Shown here in pieces: positions 321 through 46,474 of a DNA stretch of 64,000 nucleotides. The stretch is from Candidatus Rokuibacteriota bacterium (lineage in GTDB: Bacteria; Methylomirabilota; Methylomirabilia; Rokubacteriales; CSP1-6), in assembly GCA_003220495.1 (NCBI GenBank), contig QHSP01000036.1, positions 1-64,000 of the forward strand, in the 5' to 3' direction. The number at the start of each line of letters is the position of its first letter. The first letter of the stretch is position 1. The notes beneath the pieces are model-generated. The model was not told the origin of the DNA. It saw only the letters and a list, made by a program, of their open reading frames with translations, and searched no databases. Position numbers and translations under genes: made by a program.

Positions 321-474
321 TCAGATCGCGCGGGCCACCGGCGTGGCGTCGAGGATCGCCTGGTGGACGCCGCGCGGAGCGACGCAGTCGCCCACCGCGT
401 AGAGCTCCGAGACCTGGCCCTTGAGCGCCAGGTAGAGGCCGTCGGTCGACGACGACGGCATCGGGGCGCTCCGC
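321..474 (-). pseudogene. Fragment of the 3' end of an OYE-type flavoprotein gene, duplicate of 25954-26508
   Basis: Bases 321-449 match the last codons of the intact flavoprotein gene at 25954-26082 with only about four differences, including the terminal 'VARAI' and stop. Bases 451-474 match 26485-26508. About 401 bases present in the intact gene are missing between the two blocks, so the reading frame is shifted. This is a degraded duplicate with an internal deletion and no start. It cannot make the enzyme. Confidence 0.85.
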
Positions 475-541
475 GAGGTGCTCCGTTCCCTCCCTGTCCC
501 GCTCGAATTGGCGACGTAGGTGGACGCGCTCGGCGAGATGA

Positions 542-685
542 GCCTGGAAGATCCTGCAGGACGACGGCCCGATCGTGCACCCGGTGTGGCGCGCGATCTT
601 CACGTTCCACGACAAGCGCGTGCAGGGCTTCAAGGTGCACCCCACGCTCCACAGCGTCGGGCACCAGCTCGCGCCGACGGCGTGA
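542..685 (+). pseudogene. C-terminal fragment of a family-5 (peptide/nickel type) ABC solute-binding protein
   Basis: The frame from 542 to the TGA at 683-685 encodes a 47-residue peptide with 'ILQDDGPIVHPVWRA', a short F-D-K-R-V-Q-G-F-K segment and a final H-P-T-L stretch. This is the standard end of bacterial extracellular solute-binding protein family 5. A stop lies directly upstream in this frame (539-541), while the preceding residues ('DALGEM') appear in another frame, so there is a frameshift and no intact gene. It is on the opposite strand to the neighbouring flavoprotein fragment. The catabolic block at 26-38 kb carries a complete set of dipeptide-type permeases and ATPases but no binding protein of its own. 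Confidence 0.7.
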
Positions 686-10008: not shown

Positions 10009-10031
10009 GCGCTTGGGGTCTTTGTGCAGGG

Positions 10032-13354: not shown

Positions 13355-13520
13355 CCTGGGCGTTGCGCTTGCCGGGGCCGCTCCACGCTAGTCACTGGCT
13401 CGCGATCTCCGTCGCCACCGCCCGCTTCACCGGCGCTGAAATCCACGGCGGGGCGAAGAAGTCGCGCAATTCCGCGACACCCTCCCCGGCGGTTCGCCGA
13501 TTGCCGGCTACGCGACGGCG

Positions 13521-13898
13521 GCAGCCCGCAATCGACGATCCTGTCGAGCAGTGTCTTGTAGCTCACCTTGAGGATGCGGGACTCCGCGGCTCGATTCCAG
13601 CCCACCCGATGCAGCACGTCCTCGCATGGATGGCTCTGGCCACGAGATCCTTCCCGACGCCGTTTTCGCCGCGGATCAACACCGTTGCGTCCGTATCCGC
13701 GACGTTTTCGATGATCGTCCCGATGGCTCGCATCTGCGAGCTGCCGTCAGAGAGTGACGCGTGCCTTGTTGGATCGGACGTCTGCACAGACCGCACGAGC
13801 ACCCCCTGGCGCAGCGGTTGGTATCGCGTGTGCCGCAGTGAAGATCCGAAGGCCCCGCCGGCGACGGCGCGCGTTTCCGCGCGCCGCTGCCCGGTCAC
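13521..13898 (-). pseudogene. Collapsed sigma-54 (NtrC/Fis-type) transcriptional activator gene
   Basis: Two pieces of one gene are fused out of frame. The upstream piece (13898 to about 13620) encodes the start of a sigma-54 activator AAA+ domain, with 'TDATVLIRGENGVGKD' as Walker A and 'VARAIHA' after it. The downstream piece (13617 to about 13521) encodes a Fis-type helix-turn-helix, 'AAESRILKVSYKTLLDRI'. Roughly 200 residues that normally lie between them, including Walker B, the GAFTGA loop and the arginine finger, are absent, and the two pieces are in different frames. The product could neither hydrolyse ATP nor contact sigma-54. Confidence 0.8.
13865..13886 (-). terminator. Hairpin downstream of groEL
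   Basis: A perfect 9-bp GC stem with arms CGGCGCGCG and CGCGCGCCG and a four-base loop (GAAA on the minus strand) begins 24 bases past the groEL stop. No U-run follows, so it may act as an mRNA 3'-end stabiliser or a non-canonical terminator. Confidence 0.5.
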
Positions 13899-28662: not shown

Positions 28663-29859
28663 TCACAACCGATGCTTCGGATGCGGCTCCGCCGCCCAGC
28701 GCGCGCTCGGCACCGGGTCGTTCTCCCGGAACCGCGTCCACCGGAACGGCGTGACGTCGTAGTCCTTCGAGCGGCCGTGCAGGATCACGTCCGAGATGAT
28801 GTCGCCCATCAGCGGCGAATGCTTGAAGCCGTGCCCGCTCCAGCCGAAGTCGGCGAACAGGCCCTCGTACGGCGCGATCGCGCCCAGGACCGGGTGATGA
28901 TCGGGCGTCGCGTCGTACAGCCCCGAGTAGCCGCCCATCGCCAGGCCGTGCTCCATCACCGGGAAGCGATGCGCGATCAGCTCGGCGTTCTTCACGATCT
29001 GGTCCGGATCGGCGCCCTCGTTGTACGAGTCCGGATCGACGATCTCGTCGTAGACGAGCTTGCCGTGGATCGTGAGATCGCCGTGCTCGGGCCGCATGTA
29101 GGTCATCTGCACGCTGTCGGCGACCGCCGGGTGCACGCCGAAGCCCGCGGGCCGGCGAAAGAAGCACATCTGATGGCGCTCGGGCTTGATCGAGACCTCC
29201 ACGCCGAGCGGGCGCAGGAGCCGATCCGCCCAGAGCCCCGCGCAGTTGACGACGACGGGCGCGTCGATATCGACGCCCTCTGATCGGACGCCGACGACCT
29301 TCTCACCCGTCGTCCGGATCGCGTCGACGTGCCGGTACTGCACGAGCGTCGCGCCGAGCTCGCGCGCGCGATTGGCCAGCGCGTTCGCCGTCGAGGACGG
29401 ATCGGCGTAGCCCGATTCCGCTTCGTACGAAGCCAGCGCGATGTCGTCCACGTTGGCGGCCGGCACCAGCGCCTTCACGTCAGACGGCGAGATGAGCTGC
29501 ACTCGGGCGCCGACCTTCTGGGCCTGCATCGCGTTGTGGCGGAGGTTCGGCGCGTTGTCGGGGCCGGCGAGCGCGAGCATGCCGACCTGCTGGAAGCCGG
29601 GATCGCCGTCGCCGCCGACGAGGTCCTTCCAGTGGCAGAACATCTCGGCCGCGGCGCTGGCGGAGCGCGTGAAGAAGTCCATCGCGTAAAAGCGGCGCAC
29701 GAGCGCGGTCGAGCGTCCGGTCGGACCGGACGCGATGAACTTCTTCTCGAGCAGCAGAATGCGGCCGGCCTTCTTGCGCGCCAGATGAAACGCGAGGCTG
29801 ACGCCGTGCACGCCCCCACCGATGATCACGAAGTCCGCCGCTCTCGGCACGTCTACCAT
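28663..29859 (-). CDS. DAO-family FAD-dependent oxidoreductase (sarcosine oxidase beta / HcnC-like)
   Basis: The 398-residue protein starts with the FAD dinucleotide motif 'FVIIGGGVHGVSLAFHLA' and has the DAO-fold closing motif 'LFADFGWSGHGFKHSP' near residue 345, which positions the flavin. Members oxidise amino acids or N-methylated glycine derivatives such as sarcosine. GAGGAAGG seven bases upstream fixes the start at 29859. It lies 98 bases downstream of the HcnB-like gene, a pairing seen in heteromeric D-amino acid, opine and hydroxyproline dehydrogenases. The substrate cannot be read. Confidence 0.88.
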   Translation of the reverse strand: MVDVPRAADFVIIGGGVHGVSLAFHLARKKAGRILLLEKKFIASGPTGRSTALVRRFYAMDFFTRSASAAAEMFCHWKDLVGGDGDPGFQQVGMLALAGPDNAPNLRHNAMQAQKVGARVQLISPSDVKALVPAANVDDIALASYEAESGYADPSSTANALANRARELGATLVQYRHVDAIRTTGEKVVGVRSEGVDIDAPVVVNCAGLWADRLLRPLGVEVSIKPERHQMCFFRRPAGFGVHPAVADSVQMTYMRPEHGDLTIHGKLVYDEIVDPDSYNEGADPDQIVKNAELIAHRFPVMEHGLAMGGYSGLYDATPDHHPVLGAIAPYEGLFADFGWSGHGFKHSPLMGDIISDVILHGRSKDYDVTPFRWTRFRENDPVPSARWAAEPHPKHRL

Positions 29860-29957: not shown

Positions 29958-31595
29958 TCATTCGTCGCTCATGATCAGCCGCGCGTGCGCAGTCGGCTCG
30001 TCGATCGCCATGCCGGCGGTCCAGTGCGGGCTGAACTGCGTGGGGATGCCGAACCAGCTCACCCACTCCTCGCGCATCGCGGCCGGCTCGTCGGCCGGCC
30101 ACAGCACGTTGAGCGGCAGTGGCCGGATCGGCGGACGGAAGGTCGGCAGCGGGATGCGATCGAGCGTGGTGCCCACCGCCTGCGCGAGCAGCAGCCCGAC
30201 CTGCTCGCGGCAGCGCCGGCTCTGGCATGGCCCCATTCCGGCGCGCGTGAGCCGCTTGATCTGATCCTGGTTGAGCGGCCCGTCGCGCAGGAGCGTGGTG
30301 ACGCTGCGCGCGCTCATCTGCGGAGAGGCCCACTTGAGATAGCGCGGCGGCTTCGTCTCGACCAGCTCGCGTCGCGTGACCTCCTCGCACTGGCAGACGT
30401 TCACCTCCCAGCCGCCCGCCGCGATCAGCGAGTCGAGCCAGGCGCGCCAGTGCGCGTCGACTTCGGCGGCCGCGGCTGGTGTTGCCGCGGCGTCTCGCCG
30501 CGTGTCGACCTCCGCCCGGGGGCGGACGCCGAGCGATTCGGCCGCCGCGGCGCCGGCCACTCGTCCCTGGGCGCGCGCGAGATCCGGCGCGGTCAGCATG
30601 CCTTCGTGGAATCCGGCGCAATCGCCGGCCGCGAAGACCGTCGGCACGCTGGTGCGCATCCGCGCGTCGATCTCGGGTGCCCATCCGCCCCGCTGGGAGA
30701 CGAACCGCAGCCGCGCGCCGACGAGATGGAGCAGCTCGACGCTCGGCACCAGGCCGATCGCCCAGCACACGGCGTCGCAGGCGATCTCGCGCTCGCTGCC
30801 CGGGACGGGTGTGCCGTCACGATTCACGCCGCCGAGCACCACGGACTCGACTTCACCCGTGCGCCCACGCGCCGACTGGATCGTGTGCGACACGAAGAAC
30901 GGCACGCCGCGGCCGGCCAGCGCCTTCGCGGTCGCCGCGTCACCCCGTACCTGTTCGCCGACCTCGACGACGCCCACCACCTCGACACCGTGCTGCGTCG
31001 CGAGCATCGCGGTGTGCAAGCCGAGCGCGCCCGATCCGAGCACGACGAGACGCCGCGCAGCGAGCGCGCGATACCGCGTGAGCAATGCCGCGGCTCCGCT
31101 GGCGCCGAGAGTTCCCGCGCGCTCCCAGCCCGGAAAGCCGAGCAGCACGTCGCGAGCGCCGGCGGCGACGATGAGCCGGTCGTAGCCGAGCAGCCAGGAG
31201 CGGCGGTCGTCCGCGAGGCCGAGCATCGGCACGGGCAGCTCCTGCACCGCGGGCCCGTTGACGAAGGCGCCCCAGACGTAGGTGCCGAGCTGCACGTCGA
31301 CCCCAGCCTCGTGGGCGGCCGCCAGATCGGGGTTCGTCTCCACCACCCGCTCGAGCATCAGCGCGCGGTTGCGAACCGAGCCGTCCATGCGCTGGCCGAA
31401 GCAGAGCGGCACGTCCATCGCCATCATGTCGTTGTCGACGGGATGCTCGTCGACCAGCACGACCTCGACTCCGGCGCGTGCCGCCTCGATCGCCGCCGCC
31501 ACGCCGGCGGCGCCCGCCCCCACGACGACCAGCGGCACGTGGCGATCGGGCGCGGGCAGCTTGCCGGCGATCGAGCGGGGATCCCTTTCGCGCAT
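29958..31595 (-). CDS. HcnB-like FAD/NAD(P) oxidoreductase with BFD-type [2Fe-2S] domain
   Basis: The 545-residue protein has an FAD-binding Rossmann 'LVVVGAGAAGVAAAIEAA' at residue about 22, a second Rossmann 'LVVLGSGALGLHTAML' near residue 185, and a C-terminal BFD-like cluster domain with C-x-C ('VCQCEEV') and C-x4-C ('PCQSRRC') ligands. This matches the alpha subunit of opine oxidase, D-hydroxyproline dehydrogenase and hydrogen cyanide synthase B. Those complexes normally also have a small [2Fe-2S] subunit (HcnA-like). None is present here, although two DAO-type subunits flank this gene. Its ATG overlaps the upstream stop by one base. Confidence 0.88.
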   Translation of the reverse strand: MRERDPRSIAGKLPAPDRHVPLVVVGAGAAGVAAAIEAARAGVEVVLVDEHPVDNDMMAMDVPLCFGQRMDGSVRNRALMLERVVETNPDLAAAHEAGVDVQLGTYVWGAFVNGPAVQELPVPMLGLADDRRSWLLGYDRLIVAAGARDVLLGFPGWERAGTLGASGAAALLTRYRALAARRLVVLGSGALGLHTAMLATQHGVEVVGVVEVGEQVRGDAATAKALAGRGVPFFVSHTIQSARGRTGEVESVVLGGVNRDGTPVPGSEREIACDAVCWAIGLVPSVELLHLVGARLRFVSQRGGWAPEIDARMRTSVPTVFAAGDCAGFHEGMLTAPDLARAQGRVAGAAAAESLGVRPRAEVDTRRDAAATPAAAAEVDAHWRAWLDSLIAAGGWEVNVCQCEEVTRRELVETKPPRYLKWASPQMSARSVTTLLRDGPLNQDQIKRLTRAGMGPCQSRRCREQVGLLLAQAVGTTLDRIPLPTFRPPIRPLPLNVLWPADEPAAMREEWVSWFGIPTQFSPHWTAGMAIDEPTAHARLIMSDE

Positions 31596-32773
31596 CAGTC
31601 GTCACCGCCGGCCGCCGCTTCGATCGCCGGCGGCGCCGCGGCCCACCCGGCGTGCTCGCGCCAGTCGCGCGGCGTCGCGGCGAAGCGGCCGAGCGCCAGC
31701 GCGCCGAGATCGGCGAACTGGCAACGGCCAAAGCGCACGAGCTCGCTGACGGCACGGCCGACCGCGGGCGAAAGCCCGAAGCCCACGCTCGACATCGTCG
31801 CGATGACGAGGTTGTCCGGATGGCGCAGCCGTTCGACGACCGGCAACCCGTCGGGCGTGTTCTCGACGAGCCCGCTCCACGAGCGGATCAGCCGCACGTG
31901 CGCGGCGCCCGGTAAAAGCTCGGCGAGCCGCCGCGCCAGGTTGCGGACGAGCGGCGTGTTCGCGTGGTCCGGCGTCGCCATGTCCGGCACGTTGATCCAT
32001 TCGTGCGGGCCGCCGCCGTACACGAGGTTGCCGCGGAGCGTCTGGCGACCATAGAGCCCGTTGCCCGCGACGCCGCCCACCCGCATCGCCGGGATCGGCT
32101 CGGTCGCGATCATCTCCACGCGCGCCGGCGCCAGCGGCAGCCAGATCCCGAGCATCTCGGCGAACACACCGGTCTGAAGGCCGGCGGCGATCACGACGGT
32201 GTCGGCGGCGAACGTGCCGCGTGTGGTCTCCACCGCGGTGACTCGCCCGCCGCGCTGGGTGAGCCCGCTCACGGTCGTGTGCTGGAGGATCCGGCCGCCG
32301 TGGTCTTGCAACGCCCACGCGTACGCCTGCACCGTGCGCTGCGGGTTGGCGTGGCCGCCGAAGTGCAAATAGGTGCCGCCGATCGCGTTGTCGCCCACGA
32401 TCGGTACCAGCTCCTTGAGCTGCCGTCGGTCCAGCCGCTCCCAGCGAAACCCGCGCGCCTCGCCGATCTCGGCCCAGCGCCGGGCCAGCGCCAGCTGCGT
32501 CTCGCTGAGCGCGACGCCGATGCGATACGGCTGATACTCGGTCGGATAGCCGAGCAGCTCGTCCATCTGCGGCCAGAGCCGCTGCTCCTCGAGACCGAAG
32601 GGGCTGTAGACGTGCGTGGCGCCGCCGCCGTTGCGGCCCGATGCCTCCCACCCGACGATCCCCTTCTCGAGCACGAGCACGTCGACGCCGGCGCGGGCCA
32701 GCCACCAGCCGGTGCTGAGCCCCGTGACGCCCCCGCCCACGATCACCACCGCCGCGCCGCTCATCGCCGCCAT
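31595..32773 (-). CDS. DAO-family FAD-dependent oxidoreductase (second copy)
   Basis: The 392-residue protein has the FAD motif 'VVIVGGGVTGLSTGWWLA' at its start and a DAO closing segment 'IATMSSVGFGLSPAVGRAV' near residue 345. It is clearly diverged from the DAO protein at 28663, so the two are not recent duplicates and may have different substrates. The start at 32773 is seven bases after the ABC ATPase stop; Met at 32764 is an alternative, and neither has a strong ribosome site. It is translated just before the HcnB-like subunit. Confidence 0.86.
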   Translation of the reverse strand: MAAMSGAAVVIVGGGVTGLSTGWWLARAGVDVLVLEKGIVGWEASGRNGGGATHVYSPFGLEEQRLWPQMDELLGYPTEYQPYRIGVALSETQLALARRWAEIGEARGFRWERLDRRQLKELVPIVGDNAIGGTYLHFGGHANPQRTVQAYAWALQDHGGRILQHTTVSGLTQRGGRVTAVETTRGTFAADTVVIAAGLQTGVFAEMLGIWLPLAPARVEMIATEPIPAMRVGGVAGNGLYGRQTLRGNLVYGGGPHEWINVPDMATPDHANTPLVRNLARRLAELLPGAAHVRLIRSWSGLVENTPDGLPVVERLRHPDNLVIATMSSVGFGLSPAVGRAVSELVRFGRCQFADLGALALGRFAATPRDWREHAGWAAAPPAIEAAAGGDD

Positions 32774-32780
32774 GTCGCCA

Positions 32781-34844
32781 TCATCGTTCAACCGCGCGCG
32801 GCTGGACAAGAGCCGTCTGCAACCGTAAGAGCTCGTCGCCAGGAATATGGCAGGCGATCCGGTGATCTCCGAATCGCTGCACCGGCGGCGGCGTCTCGTC
32901 GCAGACGGGGCCGACCCGGCGCGGACAGCGCGTCGCGAACGGACAGCCGCGCGGAATCTCGTCGGCGCGCGGCACGCGCCCTTCGAGGAGGATGCGCGCG
33001 ACGGCGTGGTCCGGATCGGGCACCGGCACGGCGGAGAGCAGCGCCTCCGTGTAGGGGTGGTACGGCGGCGCGAACACGCGCTCGACCGGCCCGAGCTCGG
33101 CAACGGTTCCGAGGTACATCACCGCGACCGTGTCCGCCAGATAGCGTACGACCGCGAGATCGTGCGAGATGAAGACGAGCGTGGCGCCGCGGGCCGCCTG
33201 GATCTCCGTCAGGAGATTCACGATCGCCGCCTGCACCGAGACGTCGAGGGCTGACACCGGCTCGTCGGCCACGATCACGTCGGGGTCGCCCGCCAGGGCC
33301 CGCGCGATCGCGGCGCGCTGCTTCTCGCCGCCGGACAGGTGGCGCGGCTTGCGCGCCGCGATCGCCGGCGGGAGCTTCACCACGTCCAGCAAGCGGGCGA
33401 TGCCGGCGGCGGCATCGGTCGCGGCGCCGCCCCGGAGACGTCGCAGCGCGCGCCCGATCGCGTAACCCACGGTGTGGCTCGGGTTCAAGGTGCTATCCGG
33501 GTTCTGGAACACCATCTGGAGCTTCCGCTTCAACGCGGCGGCGCGCGCGTCGATCGCCAGCGCGCCGACCTCGATGCCGTCGAGAATGACCTTGCCGCTG
33601 GTGGCGACCTCGAGGCCACTCAACACCTTCGCGACCGTCGACTTGCCGCAGCCCGACTCGCCGACGATCGCGAGCGTCCGCCCGCGCGCGGCCACGACGT
33701 CGACGTCGGAGACCGCGCGCACGGGGCGTCGCGGGCCACGGAACCGACGCCGTCTGGGCTCGTAGATCTTCGTCAGATGCTGGACCGCCACCATCGGCTC
33801 ACCGGGCCCACCGGCTTCCTGCGCGACGTCGGCGCCGCGCCGTCGCGTCCAGCGCGGCAGCTCGTCCGCGCGCACACACACGACCCGATGATCGGGCTCG
33901 CCACATACCGTCGCGGACGGGATCGGACGCGACGTGCAGCGGCCGGTCTCGACGTGTCCGCAGCGCCCGGCGAAGCCGCAGCCCTGCGGGCGGGCCAGCG
34001 CCGATTCGACTTGCCCCGCGATGGGGACGAGCGGCGCCTGCCGCTTGTCGCTTCCCAGGGTCGGCAGACAGTCGAGCAATCCGCGCGTGTAGGGGTGCCG
34101 CGGGTTCGTGAAGATCCGGCGCACCGGGCCTTCCTCGACGAGCTCGCCTCGATACATGACGGCGACGCGGTCGCAGACCCGCACGATGCTGCCGAGGTTG
34201 TGGCTGATGAACAGGATCGCCGAGTGATGCCGGCTCCGAAGCTCGCGGACCAGATCGAGCACCGCGGCCTCCACCGTCACGTCCAGCCCCGTCGTCGGCT
34301 CGTCCATGATGAGCAGCGCCGGACCCGTGATCAGCGCCATCGCGATGACGATCCGTTGCTGCTGGCCGCCGGAGAGCTGGTGCGGATAGCGATCCATCAC
34401 CGCCTCGGGATCGGCCAGCTTGACCTCGGCGAGCATCGTCAGGGCGCGCGCGCGCGCCGCCGACGTGGACACGCCCTCGTGGGTCATCGGCGCTTCCATG
34501 AGCTGGCGGCCGACCGTCATGACCGGATTCAGGCTCGCCATGGGATCCTGGTAGACCATCGCGATGCGCCGCCCGCGGATCGCGCGCAGCCCCGCCTCGC
34601 CCAGGGTCGTCAGCTCACGCCCCTCGAAGCGAACGCTGCCGCCGGTGATCCGGCCGGCGCGCCCCAGATAGCGCACGATCGACAGCGCGACCGTCGACTT
34701 GCCGCAGCCGGACTCGCCGACGAGCCCGAGCGCTTCGCCGGCCTTCAGCTGGAAGCTGACGCCGGGGATCACGACCGCCTCGCCGGCGCGTGTCGTGTAC
34801 GCGATGCGGAGGTCGCGGACGTCGAGCAGCGGGCCGTCAGTCAC
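32781..34844 (-). CDS. Fused dipeptide/oligopeptide ABC transporter ATPase (DppD-DppF fusion)
   Basis: The 687-residue protein holds two complete ABC ATPase modules. The first has Walker A 'GESGCGKST' near residue 44, signature 'LSGGQQQR' and Walker B 'LLIMDEPT'. The second has 'GESGCGKST' near residue 391, 'LSGGEKQR' and '[12 protein letters not shown]'. Each is followed by the oligopeptide-transport C-terminal extension with a cysteine-containing segment ('[15 protein letters not shown]', '[11 protein letters not shown]'). These proteins energise import through the DppB/DppC-like permeases encoded just upstream. In most genomes the two ATPases are separate genes. Its start overlaps the upstream permease gene by eight bases. 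Confidence 0.94.
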
Positions 34845-35733
34845 GCAGGCCCAGCTCTCTCAGCCCCACCGCGAGCAGGTTGAACCCGACGACCAGGGAC
34901 GAGATGGCCGCGCACGGCACGAGCGCCATGTGCGGCCACACCATCATCATCCCGTACGTGTCCTTGACCATGCCGCCCCAGTCGGGATCGGGCGGCGGCA
35001 GGCCGATGCCGAGGAAGCCGAGCGCGCCGATGATGATGACGTTGTAGCCGCTGCGCAGGCACATGTCGACCACGAGCGGGCCGCGCGCGTTCGGCAGGAT
35101 CTCGACCAGCATGATGTAGAGCGCCGACTCGCCGCGCATCTTCGCGGCCGCGACGTACTCGCGCTCGCGCAGGTCGAGGGTCATGCCCCGCACGATGCGG
35201 GCGATGATCGGCGCCTTCGTCAGGGTGAGCACGCCGATGATGTTCCACGCCGACGAGCCGAAGTGGGCCAGGATGATCATGTAGAGGATGATGACCGGGA
35301 ACGACAGCACGATGTCGCACGCGCGCGTGATCGTGAGATCGATCCAGCGGCCGTAGTAGCCGGCGGCCAGTCCGAGCAGCGAGCCGAGCGCCGCCGCGCC
35401 CAGCACGGCGAGCGGCGCGATGACGAGCACCGGACGCGCGCCCCACAGGATGCGCGAGAGCAGATCGCGTCCGAGATGATCGGTCCCCAGCCAGTGCGCC
35501 TTCGAGGGCTGGGTGTGGGCGAGCGCCGCCATGTCGTTGGCATTCGGCGGGTACGGCGCGATCAGCGGGGCGAGCAGCGCCAGGACGACCCAGGCCAGGA
35601 CGATCGCGATGCCGATGGTGGCGGGAGTCGATTCGGCCAGCGCGGCGACCCGCCGCCTCCACCGGCGCGCCCACACGCGCGAAGCCGCCGGCGACGACGC
35701 GGAGAGTGTCCCGGCGGCGACCGGCGTGCTCAT
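34837..35733 (-). CDS. ABC transporter permease, DppC type
   Basis: The 298-residue inner-membrane protein has one N-terminal span ('GIAIVLAWVVLALLAPLIAP') and five core spans. The OppC/DppC marker 'HWLGTDHLGRDLLSRILWG' lies near residue 80, and the EAA-loop region contains 'REREYVAAAKMRGES'. It pairs with the DppB-type permease three bases upstream. The importer class takes up peptides, nickel, opines or other small solutes; no binding protein is encoded in this window to narrow that down. Confidence 0.94.
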   Translation of the reverse strand: MSTPVAAGTLSASSPAASRVWARRWRRRVAALAESTPATIGIAIVLAWVVLALLAPLIAPYPPNANDMAALAHTQPSKAHWLGTDHLGRDLLSRILWGARPVLVIAPLAVLGAAALGSLLGLAAGYYGRWIDLTITRACDIVLSFPVIILYMIILAHFGSSAWNIIGVLTLTKAPIIARIVRGMTLDLREREYVAAAKMRGESALYIMLVEILPNARGPLVVDMCLRSGYNVIIIGALGFLGIGLPPPDPDWGGMVKDTYGMMMVWPHMALVPCAAISSLVVGFNLLAVGLRELGLRD

Positions 35734-35736
35734 GGC

Positions 35737-36675
35737 TCAGGCCCGGATACGCGGGTCGAGCAGCCTGTAGGCCAGATCGCCCAGGATGTTGGTGACGACG
35801 GCCAGGAAGACTGCGACCAGCGCCCCCGCCTCGATCAGCGCGATGTCCTTGAACAGCGCCGCCTCGAGGATCATGCGGCCGAAGCCCGGGTAGGCGAACA
35901 CCGTCTCGACGACCACGACCCCGGCGATGAGGTAATTGATCTGCAGCATGATGATCGTGACCGGCGTGAGCATCGCGTTGCGCAGCGCGTGGCGCAGGAT
36001 CACGGCGCGGAACGGCAGCCCCTTGAGGACCGCGGTCCGGATGTACGGCCGCTGCATCACCTCGACCATCGACGCGCGGATCATGCTCACGACGTAGCCG
36101 GAGTCGAACAGCACGATCACGGCGACCGGCAGCACGAGTTGCGCCGCCACCGACCAGCCGCCTCCGGCCACCAGGGTGGCCGTGCCGGGCAGCCAGCCCA
36201 GCCAGACCACGAACACGCTCGCCAGGAACACGCCGAGCGCGAACTCGGGGATCGACGCGATCACCGTGCTGAACATCAAGATGCCGCGGTCGAGCCGCGA
36301 CGCTTCGCGCATGCCGGCCACCACGCCGAGCACCGTCGACAGCGGCACGATGCACGCGAACGCGACGGCGGCGAGGAGCGCGGTGTTCGCGAGGTGCTTG
36401 AAGATCACGTCCCGCACCGGAAGCTTGAAGCGCGTGGAGTACCCGAGGTCGCCGGAGGCGAGTGTTTTCACGTATTCGACGTAGCGCACGAGCACCGGCC
36501 GGTCGAGCCCCATCTGCTTGGTCAGCAGATCCACCTGCTCCTGGGTCGCGTACGCGCCGAGGATCTTGCGCGCCACCGCCCCGGGAGAAAACTCGTTCAA
36601 GGTGAAGACGAGGAAGGAGACGGCGGACAAGGTCAGCAGCAGGAACGCCACGTGCTTGACGACGAAGCGCTTCAT
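35737..36675 (-). CDS. ABC transporter permease, DppB type
   Basis: The 312-residue membrane protein starts with a typical DppB first helix ('VAFLLLTLSAVSFLVFTLNEFSPG') and carries five further hydrophobic spans. The interface loop 'LPFRAVILRHALRNAMLTPVTI' contacts the ATPase. The overall order is HSMT-like, DppB, DppC, fused ATPase. A separate solute-binding protein gene, usually first in such operons, is missing. Confidence 0.94.
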   Translation of the reverse strand: MKRFVVKHVAFLLLTLSAVSFLVFTLNEFSPGAVARKILGAYATQEQVDLLTKQMGLDRPVLVRYVEYVKTLASGDLGYSTRFKLPVRDVIFKHLANTALLAAVAFACIVPLSTVLGVVAGMREASRLDRGILMFSTVIASIPEFALGVFLASVFVVWLGWLPGTATLVAGGGWSVAAQLVLPVAVIVLFDSGYVVSMIRASMVEVMQRPYIRTAVLKGLPFRAVILRHALRNAMLTPVTIIMLQINYLIAGVVVVETVFAYPGFGRMILEAALFKDIALIEAGALVAVFLAVVTNILGDLAYRLLDPRIRA

Positions 36676-36690: not shown

Positions 36691-37788
36691 TTAGCCGGAC
36701 GCGGCGGGCGCGCGATAGTTGCGGCGGGCGTACTCCAGATAGTCTTGACGCAGGCGCTGGTCGGAGCCGAAGAGGATGTGCTTGGACATGTCCGGCGAGT
36801 ACTGGCTGGCCGCCGGGCGCCGGCCGAGCGCCTCGGCCAGGCTGCGCACGTGATGCGGCCCGGCGCCGCAGCACACGCCGAGGTATCGCGCTCCGAGGGC
36901 GAACGCTTCCTTGCCGAACTCGCCGATCTCGTAGCGATTGCACAGGAACGGGTCGAGCGCGGTCGGGAAGGGCCGCCCGTCGGGGCCGGACGTGCCGTGC
37001 GGATCCGTCAGGCTCTGGAACGTCGGCTCCGCCGGCGTCGTGCGATAGGGCACCGGCAAGGCGGCGACGTGGCAGGTGACCGCCGCGCGGATCTCGCGCA
37101 GCAGCGGCAGGGTCGTGGCCGGGCCGCGCGCGCAGTTCATCCCCACCACATCGGCGCCGCGGTCTTGAAGTCGACGGCACGTCTCGGCCGCCGTCCAGCC
37201 TTCGCGCATGCGGCCTTCGCGCGGGACCGACAGGGTGATCACCGCCGGCTTGCCCGCGCGCTTGATCGCCTCCAGCGCCAGCAGCGCTTCGGCGCCGAAC
37301 GAATACGTCTCGCCGACGATGAAATCGACGCCCGCGTCGACCGCCCAGCCGATCTGCTCGTCGAAGATCCGTCGCGCCTGCTTGTGGGACTGCGCGTCAT
37401 CGGTTGCATAGATGCTGGTGTTGCAGAGGTCGCCGGCCAGCAAGGTGCCGGTCGCCCGCGCGACCTTCTTCGCGATCGCGAGCGCGGCCCGGTTGATCTT
37501 CGCCAGGTCCTTCTCGCGCCCGACGATCTTGAGCTTGGCCCGGTGGGCGTAGTAGGTGAAGGCCTCGACCACGTCGGAGCCCGCACGTACGAAATCGCGG
37601 TGGAGGCCTTCGACGAGCTGGGGGTGCTCCAGGACGACCTCGGGGACGTAGGCGCCGGCCTGCAAGTAGCCGCGGCGCTCGAACTCGAACAGATAGCCCT
37701 CGGCGCAGATGACCGGGCCGGCGGCAAGCCGCTCGAGCAGTCCGAGGGGCTTTCGTGGCGTCTTCCTGGTCGCGCTCTTGACGGGCAT
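36691..37788 (-). CDS. Homocysteine S-methyltransferase-like protein (betaine/S-methylmethionine methyltransferase family)
   Basis: The 365-residue zinc TIM barrel transfers a methyl group to homocysteine or a related thiol. Zinc ligands are visible as 'GMNCARG' near residue 215 and the double cysteine 'GVCCGAG' near residue 310, and 'CAEGYLFEFERRGYL' opens the barrel. Family donors include glycine betaine, S-methylmethionine and, in some bacteria, dimethylsulfoniopropionate. Its place between a DMSP-lyase-like cupin and an importer supports an onium-compound donor, but this is inference. Met 37788 is chosen because earlier in-frame Met codons fall in the cupin gene. A TATAGT hexamer ends eight bases before this ATG, hinting at an internal, nearly leaderless promoter. 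Confidence 0.85.
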   Translation of the reverse strand: MPVKSATRKTPRKPLGLLERLAAGPVICAEGYLFEFERRGYLQAGAYVPEVVLEHPQLVEGLHRDFVRAGSDVVEAFTYYAHRAKLKIVGREKDLAKINRAALAIAKKVARATGTLLAGDLCNTSIYATDDAQSHKQARRIFDEQIGWAVDAGVDFIVGETYSFGAEALLALEAIKRAGKPAVITLSVPREGRMREGWTAAETCRRLQDRGADVVGMNCARGPATTLPLLREIRAAVTCHVAALPVPYRTTPAEPTFQSLTDPHGTSGPDGRPFPTALDPFLCNRYEIGEFGKEAFALGARYLGVCCGAGPHHVRSLAEALGRRPAASQYSPDMSKHILFGSDQRLRQDYLEYARRNYRAPAASG

Positions 37789-37831: not shown

Positions 37832-38536
37832 TCAGGCCGGGGCGGCTGGGCCGCCGCCGGTGAGCCGCGCATGGGTAACGAGGTCGCCGCGCCAGAGGTA
37901 CATCGCCAGCAGCGGCGTGACTCCGGCGCGGGTGGCGTGGCGCACGCGCGGCGCGTGATGAATCACGGCGCCGGCCGGCTCCTGCCGCCACGGCCCACCA
38001 CCGCGCCACCACTCGGCGCCGGCGGTCAGCGTGTAGTAGATCTCGACGGCGGGATGCGCGTGCAGAGGATAGTGCGCGTGTGGCCCGAGCAGCAGCACGC
38101 CCAGCGCGAGCCGTGGGTCGATCCCGAGCGCCGGCGGGCCGTCCGCAGGGCCGGCGATGACCGCGTAGCCGTAGTTGTCGAGGAACGACGGATCGGGCGG
38201 CTGGCGCCGGTAGTTCGGGTTCTGGACCCACGAGAAGCACGGGCCGAGCGTCTCGAGCGCCGCCACGAGCGCATTCGGGATGCCGCTCGCTGTTCGGAGA
38301 CCGACGTCCCAGAAACGGCAGACCGTCAACCGCTCACTCGGCCCGACGGGCTCGCGCGCGGCAAGATTGGGGCCGATCGAGCTCAGGAGTCGCGTGAACT
38401 CGCGCAGGCTCTTCGCCGTGCTCGCATCGGTCGACTTCGCCGCGGCGCCGCGCAGCTCAGCGTCCAGCGCGGCGAAGACGCTGGCGAGCGCCGTGCGTCG
38501 CGTGGCGGGATCAGGATACGGTATGCTCGCGTCCAT
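37832..38536 (-). CDS. Cupin resembling dimethylsulfoniopropionate (DMSP) lyases of the DddL/Q/K/W group
   Basis: The 234-residue protein has a helical N-terminal half and a C-terminal cupin barrel. The metal motif reads H159-x-H161-x3-E165-x-Y167 inside 'YPLHAHPAVEIYYTL', with the second-motif histidine H200 in 'HHAPRVRHA'. H-x-H-x3-E-x-Y plus a later histidine is the arrangement of cupin DMSP lyases, where the tyrosine takes part in beta-elimination to dimethyl sulfide and acrylate. The length and N-terminal extension match DddL/DddQ better than short DddK/DddW. Other cupin activities remain possible. The start at 38536 (GAGG nearby) overlaps the 5' end of the divergent M24 gene. Confidence 0.75.
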   Translation of the reverse strand: MDASIPYPDPATRRTALASVFAALDAELRGAAAKSTDASTAKSLREFTRLLSSIGPNLAAREPVGPSERLTVCRFWDVGLRTASGIPNALVAALETLGPCFSWVQNPNYRRQPPDPSFLDNYGYAVIAGPADGPPALGIDPRLALGVLLLGPHAHYPLHAHPAVEIYYTLTAGAEWWRGGGPWRQEPAGAVIHHAPRVRHATRAGVTPLLAMYLWRGDLVTHARLTGGGPAAPA

Positions 38537-39755
38537 GCCACCTCGGCCTCGCGTCCACCAGCTCTGCGTGCCCAACCTGAGCGAGATCGACTTCGGCAAG
38601 CTCCGCGCCGGCCGGCTGGCCCGTCTGCAGGCGATGCTCAAGCGCCACGATTTTCCGGTCGCGCTCCTCTATAACACGGCCAACATTCGCTACGCGACCG
38701 GCGTGGACGTCATGGGCGTGTGGACGGCGGGCACCTTCGCGCGCTACTGTCTCGTCCCGGCCGAGGGCGCGCCGATCCTGTTCGAGTACAAGGGCTCGAT
38801 CCACGTCTCCCAGAAGGTCGTCCGCGACGTGCGTCCGGCCTACACCTGGCAGTACGGCGGCGTCGCGGCCCGCGACAAGGCGCGCGAGTGGGCGCGCTCG
38901 ATCAGATCGGCCCTGCGTGAGCTCGGGCTCGAGCGCGAGCGCCTCGCGGTCGACAAGGTCGACGCGGCCGGATTCCTGGCGCTGCAGGACGAAGCGATCG
39001 CGATCACCGACGTCGGACCCGCGACGGTCGACGCGCGCGAGGTGAAGACGCCGGAAGAGGTCGCGCTCTTCGCGATCAACGGCGGGATCGGCGACGCCAT
39101 GCTCGCCGAGTTCGAGGCGGCGATTCGCCCGGGGATCCGCGAGTACGAGCTGTGGGCGGTATTGAGCGACGCGCTCCTGCGGCGCCACGGCGAGGGATTG
39201 TTCACCCGGCTGGTGGCGTCGGGCACGAACACCAACCCCTGGCTGACCGAAGCGCACGACAAGGTCGTCATGCCGGGCGACCTGGTGGGCGTCGACACCG
39301 ACGCGAACGGCTACGAGGGATACGTGATCGACGTCTCGCGAACGTTCCTGTGCGGTGAGACGCCGTCACCCGAGCAGAAGGAGGCGTATCGCGTCGCCTA
39401 CGACTGCGTCAACGGCATGCTCGACCTCGTGCGCCCCGGCATGACGTTCGAGGAGTTCGCGGCGAAGGCGCCGCGGCTGCCCGCGGCGTACGCGGCCCAG
39501 CGCTATCCGACGATGGTCCATCAGGCGGGGCTCGAGGACGAGGGGCCCGGCATCCCCTACCCCGACGACGATCGCGGCCCGCGCCGCATCATGCCGCAAC
39601 GCGAGCTCAAGGAGAGCATGGTGCTGTGCCTCGAGTGCTATGCAGGGAAGCCCGGCGCGCCGTTCGGCGTGAAGCTCGAGGATCAGGTGCTGGTCACCGC
39701 CGACGGAGCGAGGCTCATCTGCACATATCCCTACGACGCCAAGCTGCTCGACTGA
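38523..39755 (+). CDS. M24-fold metalloprotein resembling DMSP lyase DddP
   Basis: The 410-residue creatinase/aminopeptidase-P-type protein has an N-terminal domain ('ALLYNTANIRYATGVDVMGVW') and a pita-bread C-terminal domain. Metal ligands are D258 and D260 ('VDTD'), D270 ('IDVSR'), H333 ('MVHQAG'), E371 ('CLECYAG') and E386 ('KLEDQVLVT'). D339, six residues after H333 in 'GLEDEGP', stands where DddP has its catalytic aspartate, unlike ordinary X-Pro peptidases. Ligand spacings equal those of DddP, and 'ASGTNTNPWLTEA' and the C-terminal 'TYPYDAKLLD' also fit. ATG 38523 has an AGGA site; ATG 38535 is an alternative with TATGCT seven bases upstream. A proline dipeptidase-like role is the competing reading. 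Confidence 0.78.
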   Translation: MLASMPPRPRVHQLCVPNLSEIDFGKLRAGRLARLQAMLKRHDFPVALLYNTANIRYATGVDVMGVWTAGTFARYCLVPAEGAPILFEYKGSIHVSQKVVRDVRPAYTWQYGGVAARDKAREWARSIRSALRELGLERERLAVDKVDAAGFLALQDEAIAITDVGPATVDAREVKTPEEVALFAINGGIGDAMLAEFEAAIRPGIREYELWAVLSDALLRRHGEGLFTRLVASGTNTNPWLTEAHDKVVMPGDLVGVDTDANGYEGYVIDVSRTFLCGETPSPEQKEAYRVAYDCVNGMLDLVRPGMTFEEFAAKAPRLPAAYAAQRYPTMVHQAGLEDEGPGIPYPDDDRGPRRIMPQRELKESMVLCLECYAGKPGAPFGVKLEDQVLVTADGARLICTYPYDAKLLD

Positions 39756-41543: not shown

Positions 41544-42015
41544 GGCGGGACTCCTAGAGGCATGCCGATAGACACACTATCGTTCTAATGAATGTAGCCG
41601 AAAATGCGGCGACTACGCTCCAGAATCCTTCGTCTCGGCCTCGGTCTGCTCCTGCCAGGCAGGCATATCCATTTCGCTTACATCGAGGTCGCGCTCGTGA
41701 GGGCTCCTGTTCCCGGCGACTTTTCGCCCGAATCGCCGGGCAAACCACGACCGCTGACCAGGTTGATCACCGGTTTGACCAGCGGTCTGGTCGAGCGAAA
41801 TCGGCGGAATCACGCGCGTTCGGATGTGGCACGCGACCTGCTTTCGGTATCGAGCTTCACGCTCTGAGACGACGATTGGGACGCTGGGGAGCCGAGGACC
41901 TCGCGGGCGACGCAAGGGGGGAACGCATATCGAGGTGGGCCTCTTGACATCGCTGCCGCGGGCCAACATCCTGGCTCGCGTGCCAGAGCCCCGGACCGGC
42001 CCCGACGTCACCGCG
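41544..42015. other. Divergent intergenic region without a convincing gene
   Basis: Frames here have poor start sites and no recognisable product. Bases 41747-41798 hold overlapping inverted repeats (GACCGCTG ... CAGCGGTC and GACCAG ... CTGGTC), which may bind a regulator of the divergent genes. Confidence 0.35.
41944..41972 (+). promoter_or_regulatory. Sigma-70-like promoter for the DUF35-thiolase pair
   Basis: A perfect TTGACA at 41944-41949 is followed, after a 17-base spacer, by CATCCT at 41967-41972. The predicted start of transcription would be near 41979, about 37 bases before ATG 42016. Confidence 0.4.
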
Positions 42016-42450
42016 ATGAGCGACTGGAGCCGTGTCACCAGGCCGATTCCGGTCCCGAACGAGTGGACGAAACCCTTCTGGGAGGCGGCGAAGCGTGGCG
42101 TGCTGGCGCTGCAGCGCTGCCAGGCGTGCAAGCACTTCCAGCATCCGCCGTATGCGACCTGCGTGCGCTGCATGGCCACCGACCTCGCGTTCGAGCCGGT
42201 CAGCGGCGCGGGCACCATTTACGCCTACACGATCATGTACCACGCCGGCGACAAGCGGTTCGCCGCGGCAATTCCGTACGCGAGCATCATCGTGGAGCCC
42301 GACGACGCGCCGGGCGCCTTGCTGGCCGCCAATCTGCTGGAGGCTCCCTACACCGAAGCGAAGGTGGGGCGTCGGGTCGAGGTGGTCTTCCAGCCGCTCA
42401 ACGACGACTTCACCCTGCCGCAGTTCCGGCTCGCGCGCGACACGCGGTAA
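42016..42450 (+). CDS. DUF35 (Zn-ribbon/OB-fold) acyl-CoA-associated protein
   Basis: The 144-residue protein has an N-terminal helix ('TKPFWEAAKRGVLALQRC'), a CxxC...CxxC rubredoxin-like zinc ribbon ('CQACKHFQHPP', 'CVRC') and an OB-fold beta domain ('GTIYAYTIMYHAG'). DUF35 proteins form complexes with thiolase-like partners and channel acyl-CoA substrates; in archaea they are needed for the HMG-CoA/thiolase complex. The thiolase-like gene begins 19 bases downstream, as expected for such a pair. Confidence 0.92.
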   Translation: MSDWSRVTRPIPVPNEWTKPFWEAAKRGVLALQRCQACKHFQHPPYATCVRCMATDLAFEPVSGAGTIYAYTIMYHAGDKRFAAAIPYASIIVEPDDAPGALLAANLLEAPYTEAKVGRRVEVVFQPLNDDFTLPQFRLARDTR

Positions 42451-42469
42451 TCCCCAGGAGATCCGGCGC

Positions 42470-43654
42470 ATGTGGGAGCACCGGTGCAAGGTGGCGGTGA
42501 GCGGCGTCGGCTTCTCGCGCGTGACGCGCTCCGCCGAGGTCCCCCTGGCCGCGCACGCGCTCGAGGCGGTGCAGGGCGCCGTGGCCGATTCCGGCCTCGC
42601 CGTGTCGGACATCGATGGGCTGGCGACGTATCCGGAGCTGCCGGCGACGGGCCACGCGGTCGTGGACGGCATCACCATCGTGTCGGTGAATTGCATGATG
42701 GCGATGCTGAAGCTCTCGAATCTCTCCTGGCACGTCCAGGTGGAGACCGTGAACATCGGCGGCGCCGTCCAGCAGGCCGTCAACGCGCTGCTCGCCGGGG
42801 TCTGCAGGTACGCGGTGGTCTGGCGAGCGATGCACAACCCCAAGGGCACCTACCAGAACCTGCCCGGCACGTATGCCCAGGGCCCGTCGCAGTTCACGGC
42901 TCCGTACGGGTTCGGTGGGCCGGGCCAGGGCATGGCCGTCGCGTACACGCGCTGGCTGGAGCGGCACGGGCAGGACCGGGAGAAGATGGCGACGCTCGCC
43001 GTGACCCAGCGCCGCCACTCGCACAAGAACCCTCATGCCTACTTCTGCGGGCAGCCGCTCACGCGAGAGGACTACCTCAACTCGCGAATGGTCGCGTACC
43101 CGTTCTGTCTCTACGACTGCGACATCCCGGTGCAAGGCGCGGTCGCCATCGTCCTCACCACCGCCGACCGCGCGCGCGATCTGCGACCGCGCCCGGCGTA
43201 CATCGCGGGCTACGGTCAACGCCTGGCATTCGAGGTGGCCGGACGCATCGGGAGCCTGAGCAGCTATATGGAAGGCGGCCGCAGCTCATCGCGCCTCACC
43301 TGGGAGCGCTCCGGCCTCTCGCCGAAGGACGTCGACGTGGCGCAGATCTACGACGGCTTCTCCGCTTCGGTCATCTACGGCCTCGAGTCCTACGGCTTTT
43401 GCAAAGAAGGCGAGGCTCTCGATTTCATCCAGGAGGGACGCATGGAGCTCGACGGCGAGCTGCCGCTGAACACCTTCGGCGGGAGCTTGAGCACCGGGCG
43501 CATTCATGGGCTCTGGCACATCATCGAGGGAGCGCTGCAGGCATCGGGGCGCGCCGGCGAGCGCCAGGTCGAGGACGTCAACGTGTCGTTCGTCGGCGCG
43601 AGCGCGCCCATTGTGCAGGGCACCACGTTCATCTTCGTCAAGGAACCCTACTAG
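42470..43654 (+). CDS. Thiolase-superfamily protein (acetyl-CoA acetyltransferase/SCP-x-like)
   Basis: The 394-residue thiolase-fold protein works with the DUF35 partner. It has the N-terminal 'VAVSGVGFSRV' strand, an early 'LAVSDIDGLATYP' segment and C-terminal motifs 'VDVAQIYDGFSASVIYGLESYGFC' and 'NTFGGSLSTGRIHG', matching the DUF35-associated subgroup. The nucleophilic cysteine of classical thiolases is not evident at the usual place ('VETVNIGGAVQQAV' stands there), so it probably has a lyase or non-condensing role. AGGAG nine bases upstream supports the start. Confidence 0.87.
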   Translation: MWEHRCKVAVSGVGFSRVTRSAEVPLAAHALEAVQGAVADSGLAVSDIDGLATYPELPATGHAVVDGITIVSVNCMMAMLKLSNLSWHVQVETVNIGGAVQQAVNALLAGVCRYAVVWRAMHNPKGTYQNLPGTYAQGPSQFTAPYGFGGPGQGMAVAYTRWLERHGQDREKMATLAVTQRRHSHKNPHAYFCGQPLTREDYLNSRMVAYPFCLYDCDIPVQGAVAIVLTTADRARDLRPRPAYIAGYGQRLAFEVAGRIGSLSSYMEGGRSSSRLTWERSGLSPKDVDVAQIYDGFSASVIYGLESYGFCKEGEALDFIQEGRMELDGELPLNTFGGSLSTGRIHGLWHIIEGALQASGRAGERQVEDVNVSFVGASAPIVQGTTFIFVKEPY

Positions 43655-46233
43655 ATCACGCCTTCCTCGGCCAGCGCCTTGATCTCCTCCCCCGACATCC
43701 CGAGGAGCTCTCCGTACACGTAGCCGTTGTCCTCGCCGTAGCACGGCGCGCCGCGATCGATGCGCCCCCCGATGTAGGCCGGGCTCTCGCTCAGCTTGAC
43801 CGGCACCTCGGCGATCGGCCAGCGACCGATCTTCGTGCCCGTCACCTCGGTCAGCCACGACAGCGCCGCCAGCTGCGGGTCGTTGTCGCAACGGTCCGCC
43901 GCCGTCTGGCACACGCCCGCCGGCACGCCCGCGCGCTGCAGGGCGAGCATCGTCGCGTACGCATCGCGATCTTTCGTCCAGCTGCCGACCAGCGCATCGA
44001 GGCTGTCCTGGTGCGCCATCCGCGCGGCGAGGTCCTTGAAGCGACGGTCGCTCGCCCACTCCGGATGGCCCGCGACGTCGGTGAGCGCTCGCCATTCAGC
44101 GTCCGTGAAGCACGCGATCGTCAGCCACCGATCGGCGCCGGCGCAGGGATAGACTTTATGAGGTGCGGCCGGCTTGTACGGTGAGCGATTGCCGTAGCGT
44201 GACCAGACACGGCCGTTGGCCGACCAGTCCAGGATCGTGGTGCCGCTGATGAACAGCCCCACCTCGGACTGCGAGGCGTCGACCCACTGGCCTTCACCGG
44301 TCCGCGCTCGATGGAAGAGCGCGCTGAGAATCGCGAGCGCGAAGCTGTAGGCGCCCATCCAGTCCAGATACGAGTAGCCCCACCCCGCCGGCATCGCCGG
44401 CTCGGGAAGCCCCGACATCTCCGACAGGCCAGAAAACGAGTTCGCGATCGGACCCACGGTGCGGAAGCGACCGTAGGTGCCCTTCGCGCCCATGCCCGAC
44501 TGCTGGACGTAGATGATGTCCGGCTTGATCGCGCGCAGCGCGTCGTAGCCCAGCCCCCAGCTGTCGAGAACGCCGGGCGAGAATCCCTCCGCGACGACGT
44601 CCGACATCGCGACCAGACGTCGCGCGATCTCCAGGCCCTTCGGATGTCGCACGTTCAGCGAGATCCCGCGCTTGCCCGGGTTCTTGTTGTTGAACTGCCC
44701 GCCCATGTCCGGATCGGTCACGCCCTTGAGCGGCGCCGTTGCCCGATCGCGCGCGGCGCGACCGCCGACCGGCGCCATCGCCGCCATGCGTGTGTCCGGA
44801 TGGCTCTTCAGCTCGACCTTGATCGACTCGGCGCCGAACGCGCTCAGGAACCTCGTGCCGCCCGCCGAGGCCAGGAACCACGTGAAGTCGAGGATGCGGA
44901 TCTTGTTCAGCGCAAACGGCTTGCCGCGAGGCGACAGCCCTTCGCCCACGGGCGCGCTCGCCGCGGCATCGATCACCGGCAGGTCGCCCTCACGCGGAAG
45001 CATCACGGTCGTCGCATCCTCGTTCAGGAGCGGCGCGCGCCGGCCCACGGTCCAGGACGTGCCCGTCGCGAGCCATTTGCTCGTGGCGTAGCGGAACGAG
45101 CGACCGAGCTCGGGGTGCTCGACGTCGGTGCAGCTCCGGCGCGCGAGCCAGTGTGGATCCATCGCGTTCTCGTGCGGCTTGCGCAGGGGCGCCCACAGCA
45201 TGCCGGCCTCCTGGGCTTCGCGCCACGGCACGTTGTCGTAGGTGAACGCCCGCACGAAGCGCTGGACGGCCTCCATGGCGTGGTCGCGCTTCTCCGTGCT
45301 CGGTCCCGTGCCCGGCACGAACCGTCCGCTCGTCGGCAAGGCGGCCTTCTCGGCGTCGAGCCCGGCGTCCATGCCGTACTTCTCGAGCAAGGCGACGAGC
45401 TGCGCGGTTTCACCCGGGCGCGTTCCCAGGTTCGCCATCACCCAGCGGCCGTCCTTCGTGTGCACGATGGACGGATGCGGCGTGATGCTCTCGCGCGCGT
45501 GGCGGCAGGTCTGGCGCAGCACGAGCGCACGGCGCATCACCCAGGTCATCAGGTCGACCTCGGTGGATTTCGCCACCGCCTCGTGAATGGCGCACGACAC
45601 CCGCTGCCCCTTCCCCGTACGCCAGCGGAACAGCAGGGCGGCGATGATCGACAGCGCGAGCTGCTCGCCGGCGATGTGGTAGGCGTGCCACATCTGAGGG
45701 GCGATCGGCGGCAGATCGTACGTGCCGCCGGGCGCCGGATCGTAGCCGCAGTTCATCATCACGCCGCCGAGCGCCAGGTGGATCAGGTCCGAGCCCTTGA
45801 AGTCGGCCCACGGGCCGTCATCGCCGAAGGCAGACATCCTCGCGACGATCAAGGTGGGGGTCTGCTGCAGCAGCGTGCTCGCGCCGAGGCCGCCCGCCTC
45901 GAGTTCGCCTCTTGGGGTCGACTCCAGCAGGATGTCCGCGGTGGCGATCAGCGCGCGGATCCGATCGCGGTCGTCCGGCCGGTGCAGGTCGAGCACGATC
46001 GAGCGCTTCCCCCGGTTGTACTGCCAGAAGAACAGCGAGCGCTCGCGATCTTCCCGATCTTCGTAGAAGGGCCCGATACGGCGCGTGGGGCTACCGCCCG
46101 GCGACTCGATCTTGATCACGTCGGCGCCGAGCCCCGCCAGGGTCAGCCCGCAGTACTCCGCCTGCTCGTCGGCCAGCTCGATGACGCGGATGCCTGTGAG
46201 AGGACCTCTGGAACCCTCGTGCTGGGCGTCCAT
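43651..46233 (-). CDS. Double-domain CaiB/BaiF (class III) CoA-transferase, 860 aa
   Basis: Two family III CoA-transferase units are joined in one chain. The first begins 'GIRVIELADEQAEYCGLTLAGLGADVIKIE' split over residues 14-43, the second near residue 420 ('IRILDFTWFLASAGGTRFL'). Single-domain members are about 400 residues and form interlocked dimers, so the fusion may fold as a pseudo-dimer. The second unit keeps an aspartate before its 'ALAILSAL' helix, while the first shows 'WHAYHIAGEQLALSIIAAL' without one, so possibly only one active site works. Start 46233 has GGAG. Its stop overlaps that of the thiolase-like gene tail to tail. Confidence 0.9.
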   Translation of the reverse strand: MDAQHEGSRGPLTGIRVIELADEQAEYCGLTLAGLGADVIKIESPGGSPTRRIGPFYEDREDRERSLFFWQYNRGKRSIVLDLHRPDDRDRIRALIATADILLESTPRGELEAGGLGASTLLQQTPTLIVARMSAFGDDGPWADFKGSDLIHLALGGVMMNCGYDPAPGGTYDLPPIAPQMWHAYHIAGEQLALSIIAALLFRWRTGKGQRVSCAIHEAVAKSTEVDLMTWVMRRALVLRQTCRHARESITPHPSIVHTKDGRWVMANLGTRPGETAQLVALLEKYGMDAGLDAEKAALPTSGRFVPGTGPSTEKRDHAMEAVQRFVRAFTYDNVPWREAQEAGMLWAPLRKPHENAMDPHWLARRSCTDVEHPELGRSFRYATSKWLATGTSWTVGRRAPLLNEDATTVMLPREGDLPVIDAAASAPVGEGLSPRGKPFALNKIRILDFTWFLASAGGTRFLSAFGAESIKVELKSHPDTRMAAMAPVGGRAARDRATAPLKGVTDPDMGGQFNNKNPGKRGISLNVRHPKGLEIARRLVAMSDVVAEGFSPGVLDSWGLGYDALRAIKPDIIYVQQSGMGAKGTYGRFRTVGPIANSFSGLSEMSGLPEPAMPAGWGYSYLDWMGAYSFALAILSALFHRARTGEGQWVDASQSEVGLFISGTTILDWSANGRVWSRYGNRSPYKPAAPHKVYPCAGADRWLTIACFTDAEWRALTDVAGHPEWASDRRFKDLAARMAHQDSLDALVGSWTKDRDAYATMLALQRAGVPAGVCQTAADRCDNDPQLAALSWLTEVTGTKIGRWPIAEVPVKLSESPAYIGGRIDRGAPCYGEDNGYVYGELLGMSGEEIKALAEEGVI

Positions 46234-46474
46234 GGTGACTTTCTCCAATCCGGCCGGGCGCATCCGACCGCGTGCGTTCAATGGCTCGCGCCGGCGAATA
46301 TATCGCGTTCGCACACAGAAAGTTCGGCTGTCGAGCAGAGGGGTGATGATGCGCAGAGGCTCCGTCACGCGCGATTCCCGTCATGGAAGACCCGGAGGTG
46401 GCGGGGGCGCACGTGTCGCGCGTGCACGCGAGGTCAACCGCGTGTTGCGGGACGGGCGTCGCCGCTGGAGCTGG

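Follow-up and report, generated by a model that had tools for sequence, protein, structure and literature searches.

A DMSP-lyase-family cupin and a DddP-like M24 metalloenzyme encoded head to head in Candidatus Rokuibacteriota, in a locus possibly devoted to onium-compound catabolism

Introduction

In the DMSP lyase DddP, the histidines of the related peptidases are replaced by Asp and Phe (PMC5395565), and linkage of dddP or dddQ to acuI is unusual (PMC3338564). Within the DMSP_lyase family of cupins (PF16867), DMSP-lyase-like (DLL) cupins are mentioned as a group of unknown function (Lei et al. 2018, as cited in PMC8163506). No paper linking Rokubacteria with DMSP lyases was found in a literature search. 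The locus described here lies in a 64,000-nucleotide stretch of a Candidatus Rokuibacteriota genome (the window, meaning the whole stretch analysed), for which an initial annotation had proposed that two different DMSP-lyase folds are encoded side by side.

Organization of the Locus

The locus contains the following features:

37832..38536, minus strand: DMSP_lyase-family (PF16867) cupin, 234 aa; start codon 38536-38534; Pfam 101.9 bits
38535..39755, plus strand: DddP-like M24 metalloenzyme, 406 aa; ATG 38535, alternative ATG 38523; NF043017 238 bits
38522..38527, plus strand: TATGCT box, 8 bp 5' of the M24 ATG, within the first codons of the cupin
36691..37788, minus strand: homocysteine S-methyltransferase-like protein; PF02574 139 bits; ORF opens at 37872
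35737..36675, minus strand: Opp/Dpp-type ABC permease B
34837..35733, minus strand: Opp/Dpp-type ABC permease C
32781..34844, minus strand: fused Opp DF ATPase
31595..32773, minus strand: DAO-family FAD oxidoreductase 1; start at MAAMSG; PF01266 210.9 bits; glycine/sarcosine oxidase models
29958..31595, minus strand: sarcosine-oxidase-alpha-like FAD/NAD oxidoreductase with BFD-type domain
28663..29859, minus strand: DAO-family FAD oxidoreductase 2; 81-92% orthologues in the same place in L043, L045, and L046
25954..27921, minus strand: Oxidored_FMN flavoprotein (old-yellow-enzyme/N-demethylase type); PF00724 226.5 bits; probable further member

The cupin and M24 genes are divergent, and one CATG (38534-38537) supplies both start codons, an overlap that is retained in relatives having both genes. 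The cupin ORF spans 37832-38641 on the minus strand, with its natural ATG at 38536. Past the cupin, the same-strand order is the methyltransferase-like gene, OppB, OppC, OppDF, DAO, the sarcosine-oxidase-alpha-like gene, and the second DAO, beyond which lie a dksA-like gene and then the Oxidored_FMN flavoprotein gene. The methyltransferase-like protein carries the NC and CC zinc-Cys motifs in its sequence; the Oxidored_FMN flavoprotein has an 84% orthologue near the M24 gene in L046 and is 38% identical to one adjoining a cupin in Rhizobium (L060); and a gene 65% identical to the first DAO lies near another DddP-like M24 gene (L110). No MttB-family or Rieske demethylase was seen in the window's locus. 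The gene at 29958-31595 was considered as a binding-protein gene and rejected, its product being the sarcosine-oxidase-alpha-like flavoprotein.

The binding-protein gene of the importer is present in the window as a mere scrap, with an intact 89% copy on contig C141 of the genome. A 129-bp, 97% copy of the Oxidored_FMN gene 3' end (25954-26082), followed by a binding-protein scrap, occupies window positions 321-673, so that two copies of this 3' end lie ∼25.6 kb apart in direct orientation, with GH94, PBP, Cpn60, FtsH, and polyphosphate kinase genes between them. This stress-gene block looks to have been inserted or rearranged, separating the binding protein from the importer. A 905-aa tandem CaiB/BaiF CoA-transferase is encoded at 43651-46368 (minus strand), accompanied by genes of thiolase-like and ChsH2-like type (41824-43654); it was considered as DddD and set aside, as there was no DddD evidence and its best PDB match is a benzylsuccinate CoA-transferase.

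Identity of the M24 Protein

The best NCBIfam model of the M24 protein is that of DddP (NF043017; 238 bits, E 1.6e-70), with the next model at 61 bits, although the DddP score is 40% of the 600-bit cutoff, which an Oceanisphaera DddP passes with 626 bits. Against PDB sequences, DddP scores 190 bits and the best prolidase 76 bits. Similarly, Foldseek searches with the AF2 model (pLDDT 88) match RlDddP and RdDddP with TM 0.85-0.87 and E ∼1e-40, and X-Pro peptidases with 1e-24, so that an Xaa-Pro dipeptidase is not the best M24-family match by NCBIfam, PDB sequence, or Foldseek. Alignment with RlDddP bears out the earlier observation of six metal ligands at DddP-like spacing plus a catalytic Asp: D254, D256, D266, H329, E367, and E382 correspond to the ligands D295, D297, D307, H371, E406, and E421, Y324 corresponds to Y366, and D335 to D377. 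The Asp had been numbered D339, counting from the ATG four codons upstream (38523). In addition to Asp335, the likely region of the DddP Phe reads NPWL in the M24 protein vs NPWF in DddP, with the exact Phe position uncertain. M24 paralogues of this lineage are without two of the ligands and without the Asp.

These comparisons make it unlikely that the M24 protein acts as a peptidase-like hydrolase on Xaa-Pro or N-methylated dipeptides supplied by a dipeptide-type importer, with the cupin as a sensor, an isomerase, or an unrelated passenger. The importer is indeed of Opp/Dpp type, the protein has the M24 fold with a Creatinase_N domain, and most relatives are annotated as Xaa-Pro peptidases; however, prolidases are much the weaker matches in both sequence and fold, and the protein has a DddP-type six-ligand site with D335 and Y324, which distinguishes it from M24 paralogues in the genome and the family. 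A passenger cupin would agree with the fast evolution and frequent loss of this gene, but not with its linkage to M24 in all nine cases described below.

In maximum-likelihood (ML) trees, the M24 protein falls in a clade of Rokubacteria, one gammaproteobacterial MAG, and one actinobacterial MAG (support 99), and RlDddP, RdDddP, and Oceanimonas DddP form a separate clade (support 97-100). Forcing the M24 clade together with the verified DddPs costs 11 log units (AU p 0.19), and their union is therefore not rejected. Identification of the M24 protein as a DddP lyase was not sustained, given its score below the equivalog cutoff and its place outside the verified-DddP clade in trees that carry this AU value. 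The over-cutoff Oceanisphaera DddP is encoded on a plasmid region (L054, 657-9188) with a DAO/2Fe-2S/FAD oxidoreductase set, RidA, and a TRAP transporter, which indicates that accepted DddPs, too, can have amine-oxidation genes as neighbours.

Identity of the Cupin

The cupin matches the Pfam DMSP_lyase model with E 4e-29, above the gathering score of 27, and its best PDB sequence matches are all DMSP lyases (5cu1, 6e-12; DddQ, 1e-5). The motif H159-x-H161-x3-E165-x-Y167 and H200 were found exactly at the positions first reported (234-aa numbering), and H159, H161, E165, Y167, H200, Y156, and W215 match the DddQ site in the alignment. The metal ligands and both motif-1 tyrosines (Y156 and Y167) form a set that is also present in rhizobial cupins of betaine/transporter operons. 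Judged from the sequences, the family matches and residue agreement of the two proteins are far beyond chance. The cupin is 26-29% identical to the solved lyases compared, and in a small, unrooted tree including three solved lyases the cupins separate from them with support of 100/99, on the terrestrial side with the rhizobial "lyase-like" cupins, which speaks against its assignment as a DMSP lyase. The AF2 model of the cupin (pLDDT 44.5, three sequences) was too poor for use.

Both proteins might nevertheless be true lyases of DMSP (or DMSOP), with which soil bacteria would convert plant DMSP into DMS (or DMSO) and acrylate. Every tested DddP and cupin-lyase active-site residue is present, lyases are the nearest named families in Pfam, NCBIfam, PDB, and Foldseek, the union with the DddP clade is compatible with the AU test, and DMSP is cited as reported in land plants (in PMC13352529). 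This explanation is considered improbable in view of the distance from the DddP equivalog cutoff, the separate M24 clade, the low identity and split of the cupin from the solved lyases, and the demethylation-type neighbours. The six ligands, Tyr, and Asp are not diagnostic of a DMSP substrate, since M24 relatives within betaine operons share identical residues. No AcuI-type gene over cutoff was found anywhere in the genome, but the lack of a linked acuI does not tell against DMSP, as such linkage is not the rule for dddP or dddQ. Of the original proposal, the two DMSP-lyase fold families, their residues, and their adjacency therefore stand, and the activity of both as DMSP lyases does not; the M24 protein is not placed among the X-Pro dipeptidases, and the cupin does fall outside the solved lyases.

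Conservation and Loss Within Candidatus Rokuibacteriota

Among 95 genomes from the phylum, nine have a full-type cupin (one truncated at the edge of its contig), in every case arranged head to head with the M24 orthologue (84-96% identity, four genera), which confirms the adjacency first described; the cupin-M24 pair is real biology. The orthologous loci are from soil MAGs of Ca. Rokuibacteriota, in agreement with the non-marine character attributed to the genome. Sister genomes share the stretch running from the methyltransferase gene through the second DAO gene at 73-96%, with different outer genes. The M24 gene is retained without a full cupin in G006 (two cupin ends only), AR15 (a 5' scrap), and G025 (cupin absent), and OppB lies directly behind the cupin, without an adjacent methyltransferase, in G077 and G080; the cupin and the methyltransferase have thus been lost independently of each other. 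Scanning genome-wide with the cupin as sole query gave no hits. G023 (L049) has a second cupin gene next to Opp genes, which fails PF16867 and was set aside. In G037 (L048, ∼571-651), a C-terminal cupin scrap lies directly behind a hydantoinase-B-like gene.

Ten of the 12 aligned loci have the TATGCT box, among them loci lacking the cupin; G076 reads TATTCT, and G037 has no box. The box is a probable -10 element of the M24 gene. The cupin 5' scrap may survive because this box, kept with or without the cupin, lies there. The dN/dS values are 0.06-0.18 for M24, which is under strong purifying selection, and 0.32-0.55 for the cupin. The latter values, and the deletion of the cupin in several genomes with a 5' scrap and TATGCT left behind, would fit a decaying or non-catalytic cupin kept mainly since its 5' end holds the M24 promoter. 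Such decay is very unlikely, as the ligands, catalytic Tyr, Trp, and core NPNYRR...YGY...DGPPA are kept in the eight intact Rokubacterial cupins, from four genera; the residues retained in intact cupins comprise the HxHxxxExY motif, H200, Y156, and W215.

Relatives in Other Genomes

Of the 80 named M24 relatives, those with an adjacent cupin are all from Rokubacteria. DddP-like M24 genes in L110 and L132 lie beside Opp transporters 53-57% like that of the window and an OYE-type, demethylase-type flavoprotein, the similar L091 locus being cut short by the end of its contig; a relative in L068 occurs with a 67% methyltransferase relative; and relatives in L057, L059, L104, and others lie beside MttB-family, sarcosine oxidase, DMGDH, or bmt genes. 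Such a neighbour gene is present in 22 of 75 M24-relative loci, with 0.36 hits per 10 kb near vs 0.23 far, a modest excess. Outside the phylum, the two closest M24 orthologues are surrounded by other genes: TRAP transporter, aminotransferase, and DDAH-like (L066) and urocanase, aromatic lyase, and MR/MLE (L067). In the latter (5648-13561), the actinobacterial orthologue (58%) is flanked by the urocanase and aromatic amino acid lyase genes.

The nearest named relatives of the cupin are in binding-protein-cupin-OppBCDF operons of Sinorhizobium/Ensifer (L052 and L053); a hutH gene is near the Sinorhizobium operon in L052. In Rhizobium (L060 and L174), two related cupins occur in a cluster of glycine-betaine transporter, NADH:flavin oxidoreductase, ETF, and formaldehyde-detoxification genes. 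The flavoprotein of this cluster is ∼60% identical to the one beside M24 in L110 and L132, and both protein families are therefore independently linked to the same kind of flavoprotein. Its family and neighbours, together with the example of stachydrine demethylases, suggest that this flavoprotein is an N-demethylase.

Proposed Function and Significance

Families, active-site residues, operon structure, and patterns of conservation and loss were read directly, and from them a substrate, a reaction, and an order of steps can be proposed. The explanation given most weight, with about even chances of being correct, sees the locus as a catabolic island whose substrate is an N-methylated betaine or another onium compound related to it, M24 being the core enzyme and the cupin an accessory. 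The alternative raised initially, a related onium-compound enzyme pair, gains support from the window operon and the operons of relatives, which point to N-methyl/betaine chemistry, and the pair more likely handles a methylated compound related to DMSP than DMSP itself. The imported substrate would be a small methylated onium zwitterion, most likely an N-methylated amino-acid betaine. The urocanase and aromatic amino acid lyase genes in L067 and the hutH gene in L052 make a link to a histidine betaine (hercynine/ergothioneine) conceivable.

In this catabolic island, the Opp-type ABC importer would take up the compound, and the DddP-like M24 enzyme, the most constant part, would bind its carboxylate at the two-metal centre and cleave or hydrolyse the molecule beside the onium centre through the DddP-type Asp335 and Tyr324. 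The methyltransferase-like protein and the sarcosine-oxidase-like flavoproteins would strip methyl groups, and the cupin, a dispensable accessory metal-dependent enzyme with a DMSP-lyase active site, may act on that compound or on something formed from it. Because promiscuity is common among enzymes of onium compounds, DMSP may be a side or true substrate. It is also possible, if rather doubtful, that two unrelated metal folds have been joined in a soil locus for an elimination (C-N or C-S lyase) on an unrecognised terrestrial onium compound, which would give the first defined pathway for orphan DMSP-lyase-like cupins and DddP-like M24 enzymes.

Surveys take dddP and DMSP_lyase gene counts as evidence of DMS production. 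Here, members of both gene families are found side by side in a phylum of soil bacteria, and their surroundings favour betaine-type chemistry; if this chemistry is correct, gene counts of this kind overestimate terrestrial DMSP cleavage, and if the pair does cleave DMSP, the trait is extended to soil Ca. Rokuibacteriota. The conserved pair also provides a concrete locus for finding the role of the orphan lyase-like cupins and DddP-like M24 enzymes.

Comparison With Known Systems

The M24 protein shares with DddP (RlDddP 4rzy, RdDddP 4b28, and Oceanimonas) the fold, the six ligands, and the equivalents of Tyr366, Asp377, and Trp95, but it is ∼30-37% identical, forms its own clade, and has other operon partners. 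The cupin shares with DddL, DddQ, DddW, DddK, and DddY (PF16867) the HxHxxxExY plus His site, two motif-1 tyrosines, and the Trp in LWRG, and differs in its 26-29% identity to the solved lyases compared and its position on the opposite side of a supported split. With the DLL cupins, as far as they are described in the citing source, it has family membership and non-marine hosts in common; their Sinorhizobium/Ensifer members are in Opp-transporter operons, whereas the window cupin is head to head with a DddP-like M24 gene, its closest named member being ∼37-47% identical. Similarly, the locus has methyltransferase-like, sarcosine-oxidase-like, and OYE-type genes in common with the glycine/proline betaine demethylation operons (mtgB/bmt/sarcosine oxidase; OYE and ETF), from which it differs in an importer of the Opp type rather than the betaine type.
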